The position numbers were made by a program, and so were the translations under genes. Shown here one piece after another: positions 7,420 through 43,685 of a stretch of DNA of 64,000 bases; the stretch's first letter is position 1, and each line of letters opens with the position of its first letter. The stretch is from Amorphus orientalis. Lineage in GTDB: Bacteria; Pseudomonadota; Alphaproteobacteria; Rhizobiales; Amorphaceae. The stretch covers positions 958,001-1,022,000 of the forward strand of contig NZ_JAUSUL010000001.1 in the NCBI RefSeq assembly GCF_030814015.1. Reading direction: 5' to 3'. Below the pieces are notes generated by a model that ran no database searches, was not told the origin of the DNA, and saw nothing but the letters and a program-made list of their open reading frames with translations.

Positions 7420-10400
7420 ATGCGGTTGCGTGCTGGTCTTGTAAAAACCGGACTTCTCGTTGCCCTTGGGGCGTTCTCAGTTTCTTCCGTTGGGGCACAG
7501 GAGGTCGGGCAGATCCGGTCCGACTCCCGGTTTGCCGTGCGCGACGCGCTCCTGCAGGCCGCTGGCTACGGCGATCGGTCGCTGATCGCCAGCGTGGTGG
7601 AAAATGCGCGGCTGACGCCGGACCGGGCGGATCTGATCGCCACGACGGCGACCGGGTTGCGTCCGGACCTGGCCGAGCGGATCCGCCGGGCTGCAACGGT
7701 CGGGCGCGATCTGGCTGCAACCTCCGCGGGCGGCGCGGCCGGCGCCACGGGCGCAACAAACGGCCCGCTTGCCAATCCCACGCCCTATCCCGGCGGCAAC
7801 CCGAACATCCCGATTGCCTCGCTGAGCGAGTATCAGCGCAACTATGGCCTGGAGGCCATCCACGCCGACGCGGCGCTGGCCAAGGGGCTGACGGGCAAGG
7901 GGGTGATTGTCGGTGTGATCGATACCGGCATCGACGTGCGCCCGGACGGCAGCATTCATCCGGAATTCGAGGGGCGTCTTGACCCACGGTCCACGAGCTT
8001 CCTGTATTGGTTCAATCGGGATCTGGTGTGCCAGTCCAATGACCTCTCTCTCTGCCCGACCTTTTCCGAGGACGAGGTCGTCGATGCTTTCGATCAGGGT
8101 CCGACGGACTCGATGGATCAGCAGAACCACGGCACCCATGTGTCCGGCATCATCGGCGCAGGACAGAACGGGTTCGGCATGCAGGGCGTCGCGCCGGACG
8201 CGAAGATCCTGGCGGTCAAGGCGATCAGCCAAGGCTATAATGTCGTCCTTGACGACGGAGAATCCGTCGCAACCTACCAGCTCGAACGCTGCGGTCTGGC
8301 CATTGCCAACGATGACTGCGATCCGATCGGGGGCGACCAGGGCGAGCCGACCAAGGCGTTCAACTATCTCGCCCAGTTTCCCGATGTGAAGGTGATCAAC
8401 GGCAGTTTCGGGCCCAACGCCCCGGATGGTTCGGTGAGTTGGGATCTTGGCGATGCGGAAGACCAGGAGGCTCTGCTGGAAGACGCGCGTGCGGTGCGCT
8501 CCAGCCTCGATGCGGGCCAGATCATCGTCATGGCCGCGGGCAACTCCCGTCTGGAAGCTCCGGTGATGTCGGAGAGCCCGAACGGGATCGGCCTCTATCC
8601 TTTCATTCAGCCGGCGAACCAGAATGCTCGTAACTCGGCCGGCGCGCTGATCTATGACGATCACGGGACGGGACTGGACCTGTCCTTCACGTCGCCGGCG
8701 GGGCTTGCTGCGGCGGAAGCGGCGGACGGCAAGGCGCGCGGCCGGATCGTGGTGGTGGTGGCGCTGGACGCCTACAACAACCTCGCGAGCTACTCGCAGA
8801 TGTGCGGTGCGGCCAAGGAGTGGTGCGTGTCGGCTCCCGGCGGTGACCAGGTCGCGCCTTACTTCCCCGACAGCGGCCTGCCCGGCGATCGCGGGATCCT
8901 GTCCACGATCCCGAAGAACAACTATGCCTTCGAGTCCGGCACGTCGATGGCGTCTCCGAACGTTGCGGGTGCGATTGCGGTTCTGATCGAGGCGTATCCG
9001 ACGTTCACGCCGGCTGAGATCGTGCACATCCTGTTCACGACGGCGGAGGATCTGGGCGCGCCTGGCGTGGACGCGGTGTTCGGCTGGGGGCTTGTGCGCC
9101 TGGACCGGGCGCTGTCGGTGGGTCCGATCGGCATGACCGGAACGGGCACGTATACGGTCGGCGCGTCGGGCGGCGACACGCGCTGGCTGGTGGACTTCAC
9201 CAGCGACGGCAGCCTGGATAAGCAGGGCTCCGGCACGCTGACGGTCGCGAGCAAGGCGACGTTCCGGCAGGCCTCGGCGGTGGACGGGGGCACGCTGGCC
9301 GTTGGCGGCACGCTGACCACGCCGCGGCTTGCGGTGAACCAGGGCGGCCGGCTGTCGGGCACGGGCTCCGTTGTGGCGGACGTGACGGTCGCCGGCGAGC
9401 TTGCGCCGGGCGCCTCGCCGGGCACCCTGAGCGTGACGGGCGACCTGACGCTGACGGAGACGGCGACGACGACGATCGAGGTTGACGGGACCGGGACGGG
9501 CAGCGGCGCGGGCAATTACGACCGGATCATCGTCAACGGGTCGGGCTCGGTCTTTACGGCGGGCGGCACGCTGGCGCCGGTGCTGCGCGGGATCTCCGGA
9601 TCGGCGACCAACAGCTTCACGCCGTCGGTGGGCCAGCAGTTCGCGGTCGTGCAGGTGCCGTCGGGCACGGTGACGGGCTCGTTCTCGGGGGTACGGCAGC
9701 CGGCGTCGGGGCTTCCGGCGGGAACGCGGTTCGACGTGCTCTACTATCCGAGCGTGCTGACGCTGGCGGCGACGCCGGCGAGCTACGCCAACCTTGCGGC
9801 CCTCGGGATCGGTCAGACGGGGAACGAGCGGGCGTTCGGGTCGGCGCTGGACGCGGCGCGTCCGGCGGCGGGCGTGCGGCCGTCTGCGGCGACGAACGAG
9901 CTGTTCAACACGCTCTACGCGGCGAGCGAGGCGGATCTGGCAGCGGGCTTCTCCAGCCTGACGGGTCAGCTTCACGCGGAGATGGGCACGACGGCGGTTC
10001 GCTCGGTTGGCCGGTTCGCGGAGACGATCGGGTCGCGTCAGCTGGGTCTGATGGCGGACTGGCTGACGGCGCAGTCGGCACCCTATGGCGAGGGCCAGGC
10101 GTGGGTCGAGGCGGAGACGACGCTGACGGACGTGGGCGCGTCCGGCGGTGTGTCGGGCTACGATGCGCGCTCGACGAACGTGGCGTTCGGCGTGGATCAC
10201 CGGGTGAGCGCGCGGGTCGCGCTCGGCTTCGCGGCGGCCTACGAGTATGCGGACGTGTCGTCGGATGCTCACGGGTCGGGCGACGTGACGACGTATCAGG
10301 CGGGTCTCTACGGGACGTTCGATGCGGGCGTGGTGGCGCTGGCGGCCCGCGGCGGCCTGAGCTACGGGGACCTGTCGACGAGCCGGACGACGGCGCTCCG

Positions 10401-10908
10401 CGGCTACGGGGCGACGGCAAGCGCGGACGGCCACGGGTTCGGCGGGTTTGCGGAGGCGACCGCGTTCCGGGCGTTCGAGACGCCGGTGGTGACGGTGACC
10501 CCGTCGGCGACGCTGGGCTACCGGGCGTTCGGGCGGGACGCGATGACCGAGAGCGGCAGCGTGTTCGCGCTGTCGGTCCCGAGCGAGACGTTCTCCGAGA
10601 CCCAGACGACGCTCGCGGTGGCCCTGTCACGGCGGTTCGCGCTGGGCAACGGGTTCGTGCTGGAGCCGGTGCTGAGCGCCGGGTGGCGGCACGACTACGC
10701 GGATGTGGCGCAGACGTCGGACCTCGGCATCCTCGGGGCGTCCTACGACGTGGCCGGAGCGGACGTGGGCCGGGACGCGTTCCTGGGCGAGGTGACCATG
10801 ACGGCGCTGAAGGGCGACCGCTTCGCTCTCGGCGCCTCCTGGCAGGCGGAGCTCCGCGACAACCTCACCGCCCACACCTTCCAGGCAGAGGCCAGCTTCC
10901 GCTTCTGA
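7420..10908 (+). CDS. Autotransporter serine protease, subtilisin (S8) passenger, copy 1
   Basis: The 1162-residue protein opens with a signal peptide (MRLRAGLVKTGLL..., cleavage near VGA-QE), which fixes the ATG at 7420. A short helical region (residues about 35-95) precedes an S8 domain with the full triad: Asp168 in VIDTGID, His237 in HGTHVSG, Ser509 in GTSMASP. Then come glycine-rich beta-helix repeats (VDGGTLAVGGTL..., about 600-760) of the autotransporter-associated type. The last ~270 residues are a type Va beta-barrel ending in SFRF, with the terminal aromatic that BAM recognises. The protease would be exported by Sec, threaded through its own barrel and shown at or released from the surface. 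From 8938 to the end it is nearly identical to the copy at 40191-43673. Confidence 0.95.
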   Translation: MRLRAGLVKTGLLVALGAFSVSSVGAQEVGQIRSDSRFAVRDALLQAAGYGDRSLIASVVENARLTPDRADLIATTATGLRPDLAERIRRAATVGRDLAATSAGGAAGATGATNGPLANPTPYPGGNPNIPIASLSEYQRNYGLEAIHADAALAKGLTGKGVIVGVIDTGIDVRPDGSIHPEFEGRLDPRSTSFLYWFNRDLVCQSNDLSLCPTFSEDEVVDAFDQGPTDSMDQQNHGTHVSGIIGAGQNGFGMQGVAPDAKILAVKAISQGYNVVLDDGESVATYQLERCGLAIANDDCDPIGGDQGEPTKAFNYLAQFPDVKVINGSFGPNAPDGSVSWDLGDAEDQEALLEDARAVRSSLDAGQIIVMAAGNSRLEAPVMSESPNGIGLYPFIQPANQNARNSAGALIYDDHGTGLDLSFTSPAGLAAAEAADGKARGRIVVVVALDAYNNLASYSQMCGAAKEWCVSAPGGDQVAPYFPDSGLPGDRGILSTIPKNNYAFESGTSMASPNVAGAIAVLIEAYPTFTPAEIVHILFTTAEDLGAPGVDAVFGWGLVRLDRALSVGPIGMTGTGTYTVGASGGDTRWLVDFTSDGSLDKQGSGTLTVASKATFRQASAVDGGTLAVGGTLTTPRLAVNQGGRLSGTGSVVADVTVAGELAPGASPGTLSVTGDLTLTETATTTIEVDGTGTGSGAGNYDRIIVNGSGSVFTAGGTLAPVLRGISGSATNSFTPSVGQQFAVVQVPSGTVTGSFSGVRQPASGLPAGTRFDVLYYPSVLTLAATPASYANLAALGIGQTGNERAFGSALDAARPAAGVRPSAATNELFNTLYAASEADLAAGFSSLTGQLHAEMGTTAVRSVGRFAETIGSRQLGLMADWLTAQSAPYGEGQAWVEAETTLTDVGASGGVSGYDARSTNVAFGVDHRVSARVALGFAAAYEYADVSSDAHGSGDVTTYQAGLYGTFDAGVVALAARGGLSYGDLSTSRTTALRGYGATASADGHGFGGFAEATAFRAFETPVVTVTPSATLGYRAFGRDAMTESGSVFALSVPSETFSETQTTLAVALSRRFALGNGFVLEPVLSAGWRHDYADVAQTSDLGILGASYDVAGADVGRDAFLGEVTMTALKGDRFALGASWQAELRDNLTAHTFQAEASFRF

Positions 10909-10920
10909 GAAGGTCAGAGC
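8938..10920 (+). repeat. Long direct repeat, copy 1 (3' part of autotransporter gene)
   Basis: This stretch and 41703-43685 lie at a constant offset of 32765 bp with no insertions or deletions. By-eye comparison shows only scattered single-base differences, and about 16 amino acid changes in roughly 656 residues. The match continues 12 bases past the stop codon, ending in GGTCAGAGC. Upstream, similarity is patchy: 8733-8876 is also near-identical, while 8877-8937 is clearly divergent. Confidence 0.9.
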
Positions 10921-10938
10921 ATTCCGGGAAGACAGGAG

Positions 10939-27926: not shown

Positions 27927-29236
27927 GTCCTTTGGAAATCGGCGGCTTCGCCGTCCTCGGCCTTCTGGTCTTCATCTATCTGGGCATGCCCATCGGGATC
28001 GGCATGCTGGCCGTCTCGTTCGTCGGCGTTGCCTTCATCCGCAACGACCTCGTCGCCATGCGCATGCTCGGTGCCGTGGCCAACGATTCCCTGCGCGAAT
28101 ATCTCTTCGCGGTCGTGCCGCTGTTCGTGCTGATGGGGCTTCTGGTCACCGTATCGGGGGTCGGCAAGGACACGTTCGACGTCTTCGAGCGATTGCTCAG
28201 GAAGCTGACCGCCGGGCTCGGCATTGCCACGGTCTTCGCCAACGCGGTCTTCGCCTCCATCACCGGCATCTCGATCGCCTCTGCCACGGTGTTCAGCCGG
28301 GTCGCGGTGCCGGAGATGACCCGCCACGGCTACACCAAGAAGTTCGCCACCGGCGTCGTCGCAGGATCCTCTGTGCTGGGCATGCTGATCCCGCCATCGC
28401 TGCTGATGATCGTGTACGCGGTGCTTGCCGAAGAGTCGGTCGGTCGGATGTTCCTGGCCGGCATCGGTCCCGGCATCCTGCTGGCGGTCGCCTTCTCCGT
28501 GACGATCGTCCTGCTCGCGCGGACCCGGAAGAAATTCGTCTTCGACAATCCAGACGACACCGAAACCTACACCGACATTTCCGGTCTCTCCGTCCTCCGC
28601 AAGGCGGTGCCGATCGGAGCGCTGATGCTGGTGGTGCTGGGCGGTCTCTATGGCGGGTTTCTCAACCCGACGGAAGCCGGCGCGGCCGGTGCGTTCGGAG
28701 CGCTCGTCATCGCCATCCTGCGCCGGTCGCTGCCGCCGCGCGTGTTCTGGAACCTGCTGGTGGAGACCGGGCAGATCACTGTCTCGGTGCTGATCCTGAT
28801 CCTGGCCGCAACGTTCTTCAGCCGGATGCTGGCCCTGTCGGGCGTGCCGCGGGAGCTGGCAGAATTTTTCCTGGAGGGGCCGATCGGTCCCTACGGTTTC
28901 CTGCTGGTCTATCTGCTTCTGATCATCGCGCTCGGGATGCTGATCGATTCCATTTCGATCATGCTCATCCTGCTGCCGATCGCGCTGCCGGTCGCGGAGG
29001 CTGCGAACTTCGACATGATCTGGTTCGGCGTGCTCACGGTGGTAGCCGTGGAGATCGGGCTCCTGACCCCGCCCTTCGGGTTATCCATCTATACGATCAA
29101 GTCGGCGATGAACGATCCGGACCTCCCCGTCTCCGAGATCTTCCGCGGCGCTCTTCCGTTCGTTCTGGCGATGATGATGTCGCTGTTGATCCTGGTGATG
29201 GTGCCGTCGATCTCGACCTGGCTGGCCCGGCTCTAA
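27923..29236 (+). CDS. dctM: TRAP transporter large membrane subunit, DctM family (system 2)
   Basis: The GTG at 27923 overlaps the dctQ stop codon. The 437-residue protein is the usual DctM length, with about 12 membrane segments, VVPLFVLMGLLVTVSGVG near residue 60 and GSSVLGMLIPPSLLMI near residue 145. These stretches are nearly the same as in the system 1 DctM (777-2084), so the two are close paralogues. It closes the lyase-transferase-TRAP operon, and a strong hairpin lies just after the stop codon. Confidence 0.93.
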   Translation: MSPLEIGGFAVLGLLVFIYLGMPIGIGMLAVSFVGVAFIRNDLVAMRMLGAVANDSLREYLFAVVPLFVLMGLLVTVSGVGKDTFDVFERLLRKLTAGLGIATVFANAVFASITGISIASATVFSRVAVPEMTRHGYTKKFATGVVAGSSVLGMLIPPSLLMIVYAVLAEESVGRMFLAGIGPGILLAVAFSVTIVLLARTRKKFVFDNPDDTETYTDISGLSVLRKAVPIGALMLVVLGGLYGGFLNPTEAGAAGAFGALVIAILRRSLPPRVFWNLLVETGQITVSVLILILAATFFSRMLALSGVPRELAEFFLEGPIGPYGFLLVYLLLIIALGMLIDSISIMLILLPIALPVAEAANFDMIWFGVLTVVAVEIGLLTPPFGLSIYTIKSAMNDPDLPVSEIFRGALPFVLAMMMSLLILVMVPSISTWLARL

Positions 29237-40190: not shown

Positions 40191-43100
40191 ATGCGCACAG
40201 GACTGATCAAGACGGCACTCGTCATCTCGGTGCTCGTGGGTGCGGCGGGAGGGGCCGTCGGTGAGGATGCTGGGCCGGCCGCCCTATCGCCATCGTCTGC
40301 CGTGCGCGATGCGCTGGTCCAGGCCGCCGGCTACGGCGACCGGTCGCTGATCGCCAGCGTCGCGGAGAATGCGCGGCTGACACCGGACCGGGCGGATCTG
40401 ATCGCCACGACGGCGACCGATCTGAGGCCGGATCTGGCCGGACGGATCCGCCGGGCCGCAACGGTCGGGCGGGAACTCGCCGCGACGTATACCGGCGGCG
40501 CTGCCGGTATGAATTCGGCAAGCGCGCCTGCGGCCAATCCGACGCCCTATCCGGGCGGCAACGCGGACATCCCGATTGCCTCGCTCAGCGAGTACCAGCG
40601 CAACTACAGCCTCGACGCGATGCATGTGGATGCTGCGCTTGCCCAGGGGCTGACGGGCAAGGGGGTGGTGGTCGGCGTGATCGACACCGGCATCGACAGG
40701 CGCCCGGACGGGTCGGTGCATCCCGAATTCGCCGGCCGGATCGATCCCCGGTCGACGAGCTTCCTGCACTGGTTCGACCACGACCTGGTCTGCGAATCCA
40801 ACGACACTTGGAACTGTGACCGGTTTTCGGACGCGGAGATCCTGGCCGCCTTCGATCAGGGGCTGACGGACTCGATGGATCAGGAGGGGCACGGGACCCA
40901 CGTGTCCGGCATCATCGGCGCCGGCCGGAACGGCTTCGGCATGCAGGGCGTCGCGCCCGAGGCGACGATCCTGGCGGTCAAGGCGATCACCCAGGGTGGG
41001 ATCGTGTTGACGGACGACGGCGACATCGTGTCGACATACGACCTCGAGCGATGCGGTCGGGCGGCCGCAAACGACGACTGCGATCCGATCGGGGGCAGTG
41101 GCGACGAGCCCGCGAAAGCGTTCAATTACCTGGCTCAGTTTTCCGACGTGAAGGTTATCAACGGCAGCTTCGGTCCCAACGAGGATGACGGCGCCGTGAC
41201 CTGGGATCTCGGAGATGCGGAGCAGCAGGAAGACGACTTGCTGCCCGAGGCCCGGGCCATGCGCGAGAATCTGGATGCCGGACAGATCATCGTCATGGCG
41301 GCAGGTAATGCACGGGACGACTCTCCGATCCTGTCGGAAAATCCGATCGGAGCGGGCCTCTATCCTTTCATTCAGCCGGCCAATCAGGATGCTCGTAACT
41401 CCGCCGGTGCGCTGATCTATGACGATCACGGCACCGGGATCGATCTGAGCTTCACGTCGCCGGCGGGTCTCGCGGCGGCGGAAGCGGCCGACGGCAAGGC
41501 GCGCGGCCGGATCGTGGTGGTGGTGGCGCTGGACGCCTACAACAACCTCGCGAGCTACTCGCAGATGTGCGGTGTGGCGAAGGAGTGGTGCGTGTCGGCT
41601 CCCGGCGGCGACCAGGTCGCGCCTTACTTCCCCGACAGCGGGCTTCCGGGGGACCGGGGCATTTATTCGACGGTGCCTGAGGACAGCTACAAATTCGATT
41701 CAGGCACGTCGATGGCGTCTCCGAACGTTGCGGGTGCGATTGCGGTTCTGATCGAGGCGTATCCGACGTTCACGCCGGCGGAGATCGTGCACATCCTGTT
41801 CACGACGGCGGAGGATCTGGGCGCGCCTGGCGTGGACGCGGTGTTCGGCTGGGGGCTTGTGCGCCTGGACCGGGCGCTGTCGGTGGGTCCGATCGGCATG
41901 ACCGGAACGGGGACGTATACGGTCGGCGCGTCGGGCGGCGACACGCGGTGGCTGGTGGACTTCACCAGCGACGGCAGCCTGGAGAAGCAGGGCTCCGGCA
42001 CGCTGACGGTCGCGAGCAAGGCGGCGTTCCGGCAGGCCTCGGCGGTTGACGGGGGCACGCTGGCGGTTGGCGGCACGCTGACCACGCCGCGGCTTGCGGT
42101 GAACCAGGGCGGCCGTCTGTCGGGCACGGGCTCCGTTGTGGCGGACGTGACGGTCGCCGGCGAGCTTGCGCCGGGCGCCTCGCCGGGCACCCTGAGCGTG
42201 ACGGGCGACCTGACGCTGACGGAGACGGCGACGACGACGATCGAGGTTGACGGGACCGGGACGGGCAGCGGCGCGGGCAATTACGACCGGATCATCGTCA
42301 ACGGGTCGGGCTCGGTCTTTACGGCGGGGGGCACGCTGGCGCCGGTGCTGCGCGGGATCTCCGGATCGGCGACCAACAGCTTCACGCCGGCGGTGGGCCA
42401 GCAGTTCGCGGTCGTGCAGGTGCCGTCGGGCAGCGTGACGGGCTCGTTCTCCGGGGTGCGGCAGCCGGCGTCGGGCCTTCCGGCGGGAACGCGGTTCGAC
42501 GTGCTCTACTATCCGAGCGTGCTGACGCTGGCGGCGACGCCTGCGAGCTACGCGAACCTTGCGGCCCTCGGGATCGGTCAGACGGGGAACGAGCGGGCGT
42601 TCGGGTCGGCGCTGGACGCGGCGCGTCCGGCGGCGGGCGTGCGGCCGGCGAGTGCCGACAACGAGCTGTTCAACACGCTCTATTCGGCGAGCGAGGCGGA
42701 TCTGGCAGCGGGCTTCTCCAGCCTGACGGGTCAGCTTCACGCGGAGATGGGGACGACGGCGGTTCGCTCGGTTGGCCGGTTCGCGGACACGATCGGGTCG
42801 CGTCAGCTGGGGCTGATGGCGGACTGGCTGACGGCGCAGTCGGCGGCCTATGGCGAGGGCCAGGCGTGGGTGGAGGCGGAGACGACGCTGACGGACGTGG
42901 GCGCGTCCGGCGGTGTGTCGGGCTACGATGCGCGCTCGACGAACGTGGCGTTCGGCGTGGATCACCGGGTGAGCGCGCGGGTCGCGCTCGGCTTCGCGGC
43001 GGCCTACGAGTATGCGGACGTGTCGTCGGATGCTCACGGGGCGGGCGACGTGACGACGTATCAGGCGGGTCTCTACGGGACGTTCGATGCGGGCGTGGTG

Positions 43101-43673
43101 GCGCTGGCGGCCCGCGGCGGCCTGAGCTACGGGGACCTGTCGACGAGCCGGACGACGGCGCTCGGCGGCTACGGGGCGACGGCAAGCGCGGACGGCCACG
43201 GGTTCGGCGGGTTCGCGGAAGCGACCGCGTTCCGGGCGTTCGAGACGCCGGTGGTGACGGTGACGCCGTCGGCGACGCTGGGCTACCGGGCGTTCGGGCG
43301 GGACGCGATGACCGAGAGCGGCAGCGTGTTCGCGCTGTCGGTCCCGAGCGAGACGTTCTCCGAGACCCAGACGACGCTTGCGGTGGCCTTCTCGCGTCGG
43401 TTCGCGCTGGGCAACGGCTTCGTGCTGGAGCCGGTGCTGAGCGCCGGCTGGCGGCACGACTATGGGGACGTGGCGCAGACGTCGGACCTCGGCATCCTGG
43501 GCGCGTCCTACGACGTGGCCGGAGCGGATGTGGGCCGGGACGCGTTCCTGGGCGAGGTGACCCTGACGGCGCTGAAGGGCGACCGCTTCGCCCTCGGCGC
43601 CTCCTACCAGGCGGAACTGCGCGACAATCTCACCGCCCACACCTTCCAGGCAGAGGCCAGCTTCCGCTTCTGA
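40191..43673 (+). CDS. Autotransporter serine protease, subtilisin (S8) passenger, copy 2
   Basis: The 1160-residue protein has a signal peptide (MRTGLIKTALVISVLVGAA), a short helical region, an S8 domain with Asp165, His234 and Ser507 as the triad, beta-helix repeats and the same type Va barrel ending SFRF. Over the last ~656 residues only about 16 differ from copy 1 (7420-10908), while the protease domain before that is only about three quarters identical, with changes concentrated in likely surface loops. The gene is convergent with livF, whose stop codon lies 6 bp after its own. It would be exported to the cell surface like copy 1, probably with altered cleavage specificity. Confidence 0.95.
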   Translation: MRTGLIKTALVISVLVGAAGGAVGEDAGPAALSPSSAVRDALVQAAGYGDRSLIASVAENARLTPDRADLIATTATDLRPDLAGRIRRAATVGRELAATYTGGAAGMNSASAPAANPTPYPGGNADIPIASLSEYQRNYSLDAMHVDAALAQGLTGKGVVVGVIDTGIDRRPDGSVHPEFAGRIDPRSTSFLHWFDHDLVCESNDTWNCDRFSDAEILAAFDQGLTDSMDQEGHGTHVSGIIGAGRNGFGMQGVAPEATILAVKAITQGGIVLTDDGDIVSTYDLERCGRAAANDDCDPIGGSGDEPAKAFNYLAQFSDVKVINGSFGPNEDDGAVTWDLGDAEQQEDDLLPEARAMRENLDAGQIIVMAAGNARDDSPILSENPIGAGLYPFIQPANQDARNSAGALIYDDHGTGIDLSFTSPAGLAAAEAADGKARGRIVVVVALDAYNNLASYSQMCGVAKEWCVSAPGGDQVAPYFPDSGLPGDRGIYSTVPEDSYKFDSGTSMASPNVAGAIAVLIEAYPTFTPAEIVHILFTTAEDLGAPGVDAVFGWGLVRLDRALSVGPIGMTGTGTYTVGASGGDTRWLVDFTSDGSLEKQGSGTLTVASKAAFRQASAVDGGTLAVGGTLTTPRLAVNQGGRLSGTGSVVADVTVAGELAPGASPGTLSVTGDLTLTETATTTIEVDGTGTGSGAGNYDRIIVNGSGSVFTAGGTLAPVLRGISGSATNSFTPAVGQQFAVVQVPSGSVTGSFSGVRQPASGLPAGTRFDVLYYPSVLTLAATPASYANLAALGIGQTGNERAFGSALDAARPAAGVRPASADNELFNTLYSASEADLAAGFSSLTGQLHAEMGTTAVRSVGRFADTIGSRQLGLMADWLTAQSAAYGEGQAWVEAETTLTDVGASGGVSGYDARSTNVAFGVDHRVSARVALGFAAAYEYADVSSDAHGAGDVTTYQAGLYGTFDAGVVALAARGGLSYGDLSTSRTTALGGYGATASADGHGFGGFAEATAFRAFETPVVTVTPSATLGYRAFGRDAMTESGSVFALSVPSETFSETQTTLAVAFSRRFALGNGFVLEPVLSAGWRHDYGDVAQTSDLGILGASYDVAGADVGRDAFLGEVTLTALKGDRFALGASYQAELRDNLTAHTFQAEASFRF

Positions 43674-43685
43674 GGAGGTCAGAGC
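41703..43685 (+). repeat. Long direct repeat, copy 2 (3' part of autotransporter gene)
   Basis: Second copy of the repeat at 8938-10920, at a constant offset of 32765 bp. The repeat runs past the gene's stop and takes in the last 7 bases of the livF coding strand (43679-43685), a stretch also present after copy 1 where no livF exists. Confidence 0.9.

Follow-up and report, generated by a model that had tools for sequence, protein, structure and literature searches.

Patchwork divergence of two subtilase autotransporter genes in Amorphus

Related systems and the Amorphus gene pair

Concerted evolution of outer membrane protein (OMP) genes by intragenomic conversion is described for babA/babB and homA/homB of Helicobacter pylori in two reports that cite Pride and Blaser 2002 (PMC2795765, PMC3960876). 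Segment 3 of homA/homB has a Ks of 0.051 within strains versus 0.202 between strains (PMC2795765, PMC3960876). As in the Amorphus pair analyzed here, the 3' segments of these OMP paralogues are alike within a strain, and their 5' segments form separate lineages. However, the Helicobacter genes come from a human pathogen of which many strains have been sampled, and their products are adhesins or OMPs of the Hop/Hom type, whereas the Amorphus genes code for subtilase autotransporters of an environmental alphaproteobacterium, their variable part is an enzyme, and the comparison covers two species with one genome each rather than strains, A. coralli being the sole congener compared. In Neisseria meningitidis tpsA/tpsC, recombination swaps the 3' cassette of a secreted protein gene and alters its function (PMC3848433); this is a two-partner secretion system with silent downstream cassettes in which the 3' end is varied, whereas in Amorphus the 3' end is kept alike. 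The best sequence match in PDB was Ssp of Serratia marcescens (PDB 8E7F, E 5e-35), in which a subtilase head is followed by a beta-helix (PMC9977779); similarity is low outside the catalytic motifs. Our literature searches, which covered open-licence papers, found no report of such conversion in subtilase autotransporters. With the Amorphus pair, the range of OMP concerted evolution, best known from adhesins of Helicobacter, extends to autotransporters with protease heads in an environmental alphaproteobacterium.

The window, i.e., the whole 64,000-nucleotide stretch of DNA that was analyzed, contains the following two genes:

7420-10908, + strand: copy 1; leader, S8 subtilase domain, stalk and autotransporter barrel; 1162 aa
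40191-43673, + strand: copy 2; same architecture; 1160 aa; PF00082 at 156-555 and PF03797 at 892-1140

In copy 1, PF00082 was detected at residues 159-557 (E 1e-47) and PF03797 at 894-1141 (E 4e-41; 2e-42 for the copy 2 barrel). The catalytic triad, assigned by alignment as Asp168/His237/Ser509 in copy 1, occupies columns that do not vary across five aligned homologues. Both proteins end in SFRF, with an aromatic last residue as for an autotransporter barrel, and both have an N-terminus that is hydrophobic when read by eye, a putative Sec leader. With a triad-containing S8 domain and a C-terminal barrel, both copies are predicted to be classical (type Va) subtilase autotransporters. The first-pass annotation of this DNA, made from the sequence alone, spoke of two proteases sharing one export system; the barrels are indeed similar, but each protein carries its own. 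An AlphaFold model of copy 1, built with five sequences, had a mean pLDDT of 32.

These were the only two close copies in the whole 4.7-Mb genome of this member of Amorphaceae (Hyphomicrobiales). They are direct repeats 33 kb apart within one 1.7-Mb contig, and TRAP transporter, CoA-transferase, citrate-synthase-like, histidine-kinase, PAS-GGDEF-EAL and other genes lie between them. The flanks of the two copies lack homology; the pair is therefore no recent segmental duplication that included flanks.

Divergence along the two genes

Base-by-base comparison of the copies at an offset of 32765, combined with a two-state HMM, divided the pair into the following segments (copy 1 coordinates, except for the copy 2 tract):

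7555-7654, + strand: weakly similar propeptide patch, 6% different (HMM)
7655-8709, + strand: divergent stretch, i.e., propeptide end and the bulk of the protease; 24% of bases differ, pS ~0.5
8710-8876, + strand: inner near-identical patch, 2.4% different; partner 41475-41641
8877-8937, + strand: 61-bp divergent patch directly before the active-site serine codon; 24/61 bases differ (39%); partner 41642-41702
8938-10920, + strand: homogenized 3' tract of copy 1, 97.0% identical in its coding part; partner 41703-43685
41703-43685, + strand: homogenized 3' tract of copy 2 (base-by-base comparison, HMM)
9883-9894, + strand: 12-bp cluster inside the 3' tract, 9/12 bases differ

DNA identity was 77% at 7530-8709, 97.6% at 8710-8876, 61% at 8877-8937 and 97.0% at 8938-10905. 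The 3' tract spans the end of the catalytic domain (from the active-site serine), the stalk, the linker, the barrel and 12 bp beyond the stop codon, and has no indels relative to its partner; at 10921, identity falls to chance. The protease region can be aligned at two offsets, 32762 and 32765, because of small indels within it. This layout bears out what had been annotated from the sequence, namely an indel-free near-identical stretch of 1983 bp, a shorter near-identical patch (8733-8876, slightly longer by HMM), 61 divergent bases between the two and a much less similar 5' protease region. The similar propeptide patch was missing from that annotation.

Synonymous difference between the copies was 0.50-0.56 in the protease versus 0.02-0.09 in the 3' tract, and overall it drops from ~0.5 to ~0.07 along the pair. 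The uniform synonymous divergence that would have spoken against the annotated mosaic was thus absent, and when third-position differences were shuffled 10,000 times, neither the observed run length nor the CUSUM was ever reached. Divergence also varies within the 3' tract: 1.8% of bases differ at 8938-9882 and 3.3% at 9895-10905 (HMM), and a step of 3.6-fold separates a part with 30/1650 differences from one with 20/306 (p 2e-5). Segments of the tract therefore differ in age, and more than one transfer event is likely.

Amorphus coralli and Martelella homologues

Two homologues, designated s1 and s2, were found in A. coralli DSM 19760, both at contig ends. Their contigs end at the same codon with the final 437 bp identical, and two more A. 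coralli contigs, which share the repeat end, break off within the final 28 codons. The natural reading of these breaks is a collapsed repeat about equal in extent to the window tract. A. coralli illustrates that genes of this kind are lost or broken in short-read assemblies. In alignment columns, s1 and s2 differ by 4.5% at 22-150 (propeptide), 40% at 151-447 (protease), 4.7% at 447-491 (inner patch), 41% at 491-528 and 0.4% at 528-713. Part of the identity at the ends may be assembly overlap, but 550 bp at 0.4% difference exceeds what such overlap explains. The sister species therefore has a pair with the same mosaic layout. Approximately 50 bp after the stop codon are also common to two contig ends (C4 and C5), and on C4 they form the end of a gene for a GNAT acetyltransferase, which suggests that the copied unit included this flank and came from a C4-type locus. 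No conserved gene order between the window and A. coralli was found in the flanks retrieved.

The divergent patch before the active-site serine was considered as a preserved specificity loop, and this idea was rejected. The A. coralli patch lies mostly elsewhere (columns 491-528 versus 524-544), and shared functional selection on the patch is therefore unsupported.

Two further features of A. coralli were observed. Another contig (C9, 1501-2085 of the retrieved stretch) has a lone barrel fragment without protease or stalk, corresponding to approximately codons 967-1162 (partial PF03797); over its last ~114 bp, the fragment shares 97% identity with the ends of the A. coralli pair. It is a remnant and a possible recombination partner. 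The s2 protease has an Asp-rich insertion, DDDDDDDFDGDDDGDGDDDDD, near codon 200 of copy 1, which is absent in the other aligned homologues and is perhaps a calcium site.

Comparison between species provided a control for evolutionary rate, with codons 140-430 as the protease region and codons 508-673 as the 3' part; the control extends to codon 673, since the A. coralli assembly lacks codons 674-1134 and resumes with only the last 28 codons. Third-position differences between copies 1 and 2 numbered 130/291 in the protease and 7/166 in the 3' part. Between copy 1 and s1 they numbered 145/291 and 69/166 (Fisher p 1.5e-10 versus the window pair), and between s1 and s2 161/291 and 2/166 (p 4e-17). 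Synonymous difference in this testable 3' region was 0.43-0.45 to A. coralli versus 0.05 within the genome. High divergence of the 3' part between copy 1 and s1 excludes slow evolution up to codon 673.

Phylogenetic analyses of the 3' region, with the topology test limited to codons up to 673, grouped copy 1 with copy 2 and s1 with s2 (support 100 and 98), and topologies joining copy 1 with s1 or copy 2 with s2 were rejected (AU p <0.001). The 3' parts pair by species, and homogenization therefore happened separately in each. In the protease tree, copies 1 and 2 were sisters as well, and topologies joining either of them to s1 or s2 were rejected or disfavored; the evidence for the window pair is therefore its uneven divergence rather than the gene tree. 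For the window copies, no older paralogue lineages common to both species were found in the unconverted protease. The best protease tree left s1 and s2 unpaired, with s2 placed outside copy 1, copy 2 and s1 when protein sequences were used (79% support); species-wise pairing was not rejected with DNA (AU p 0.27) and was disfavored with protein (p 0.013). These topologies suggest that the duplication behind the window pair may postdate the divergence from A. coralli, with a later refresh of the 3' half of that pair, and that the protease of s2 may be an older or an imported one. Trees built from entire autotransporter genes of this kind combine two histories.

A contrast within the family was provided by Martelella strains 175.2 and IOP_24, each of which has three subtilase autotransporter copies. 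These proteins are ~60% identical to copy 1 and resemble the Amorphus pair in family, architecture and presence of several copies per genome, but all 6 within-genome pairs are evenly diverged, with synonymous difference of ~0.5-0.8 in nearly every region and no homogenized 3' part. Two of the copies group as orthologues across the two strains. Homogenization is therefore no automatic property of the family: Amorphus homogenizes, and Martelella does not. Family-wide searches, covering the window's family and the G135 family, found no further close homologues.

Probable recombination between the paralogues and its alternatives

We consider it probable that the window paralogues evolve in concert by repeated homologous recombination, with the protease core remaining diverged. 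Recombination between the paralogues, most simply repeated gene conversion, is well supported, and we infer that the conversion was non-reciprocal, within one genome and mediated by RecA. In this scheme, RecA-type recombination would repeatedly overwrite parts of one gene with the sequence of its paralogue. Most transfers would affect the stalk, the barrel and the final part of the catalytic domain, and some patches nearer the 5' end would be transferred as well. The protease core would remain diverged, being too low in identity for recombination, and converted proteases would possibly be selected against. Homologous recombination depends on a run of identical sequence, usually put at a few tens of bases in E. 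coli. The longest exact run shared in the protease core (7740-8470) is 23 bp, so a neutral account suffices, in which the diverged core escaped and the rest was overwritten. Crossing over between direct repeats such as these would result in deletion or duplication of the intervening 33 kb, and loss of the genes located there may be selected against. In kind, the Amorphus mosaic is ordinary gene conversion in a little-studied protein family.

The main competitor, to which we give a minor share of probability, is a recent whole-gene duplication followed by replacement of the protease segment in one copy by a diverged counterpart acquired from a different strain or species. This, too, would be homologous recombination, but with the protease head as the moving part. 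It is a live rival that is strongest for A. coralli s2, whose protease falls outside the other three and whose species-wise pairing is disfavored in the protein tree and unrejected with DNA. The A. coralli propeptides and 3' parts are also alike around a strongly diverged protease, and the GNAT-tail stretch lies downstream of both copies, as a copied unit would leave it. For the window pair, however, the protease heads are sisters, and the donor would have to be a close unsampled Amorphus; moreover, the alternating blocks and the unequal ages within the 3' tract require several events. Duplication of a single age without any recombination, the 3' half evolving slowly and the protease fast, has almost nothing left to recommend it. 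Outer-membrane barrels can be conserved, which would give a slow 3' half, but the testable 3' synonymous sites differ far more between species than within the genome, and Martelella paralogues diverge evenly over all regions.

An assembly artifact, in which reads of the two copies were merged across the repeat, is very unlikely. It would be in line with the break of the A. coralli assembly at this repeat and with the position of a second autotransporter pair of the window genome, whose genes likewise sit at contig ends, but the window copies both lie inside the 1.7-Mb contig and show 59 differences scattered over the 1968 coding bases of the 3' tract, with a longest exact run of 212 bp. The second pair (start of contig C2, 1-593, and end of contig C4, 1363-1953 of the retrieved stretch, in that genome) is 94.9% identical over the last 591 bp (barrel) and possibly reflects the same process.

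Repeated conversion between the paralogues had been annotated together with functional divergence of the proteases, and the two halves of this proposal fared differently. Recombination agrees with the patchy pS, the rate control, the species-wise 3' parts, the tract ages and the A. coralli pattern, whereas functional divergence is a conjecture. Protease dN/dS is ~0.19 (from pS and pN), indicative of purifying selection; this value suggests that both copies are maintained as working enzymes. Differences between the copies include position 376 (Ser/Ala), which follows the oxyanion asparagine, and residues 494-505, which precede the active-site serine; the subtilisin positions corresponding to these sites affect specificity. 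The residue changes are mild, and it is possible that the two proteases cut different targets. A modular pair, in which conversions of the core are purged and a constant stalk and barrel serve two maintained specificities, in parallel in two species, seems to us rather unlikely.

Two other features were noted in the window. The segments at 1508-1794 and 28210-28496 are inverted repeats of each other, with 72% complementarity over 287 nt. Because the latter segment falls within the ORF of a TRAP transporter DctM, the two arms are probably two homologous transporter genes. In addition, ARAGORN listed 28629-28714, within the DctM transporter ORF, as a tRNA-like element whose anticodon has two bases (tRNA-???), which is probably a false call.
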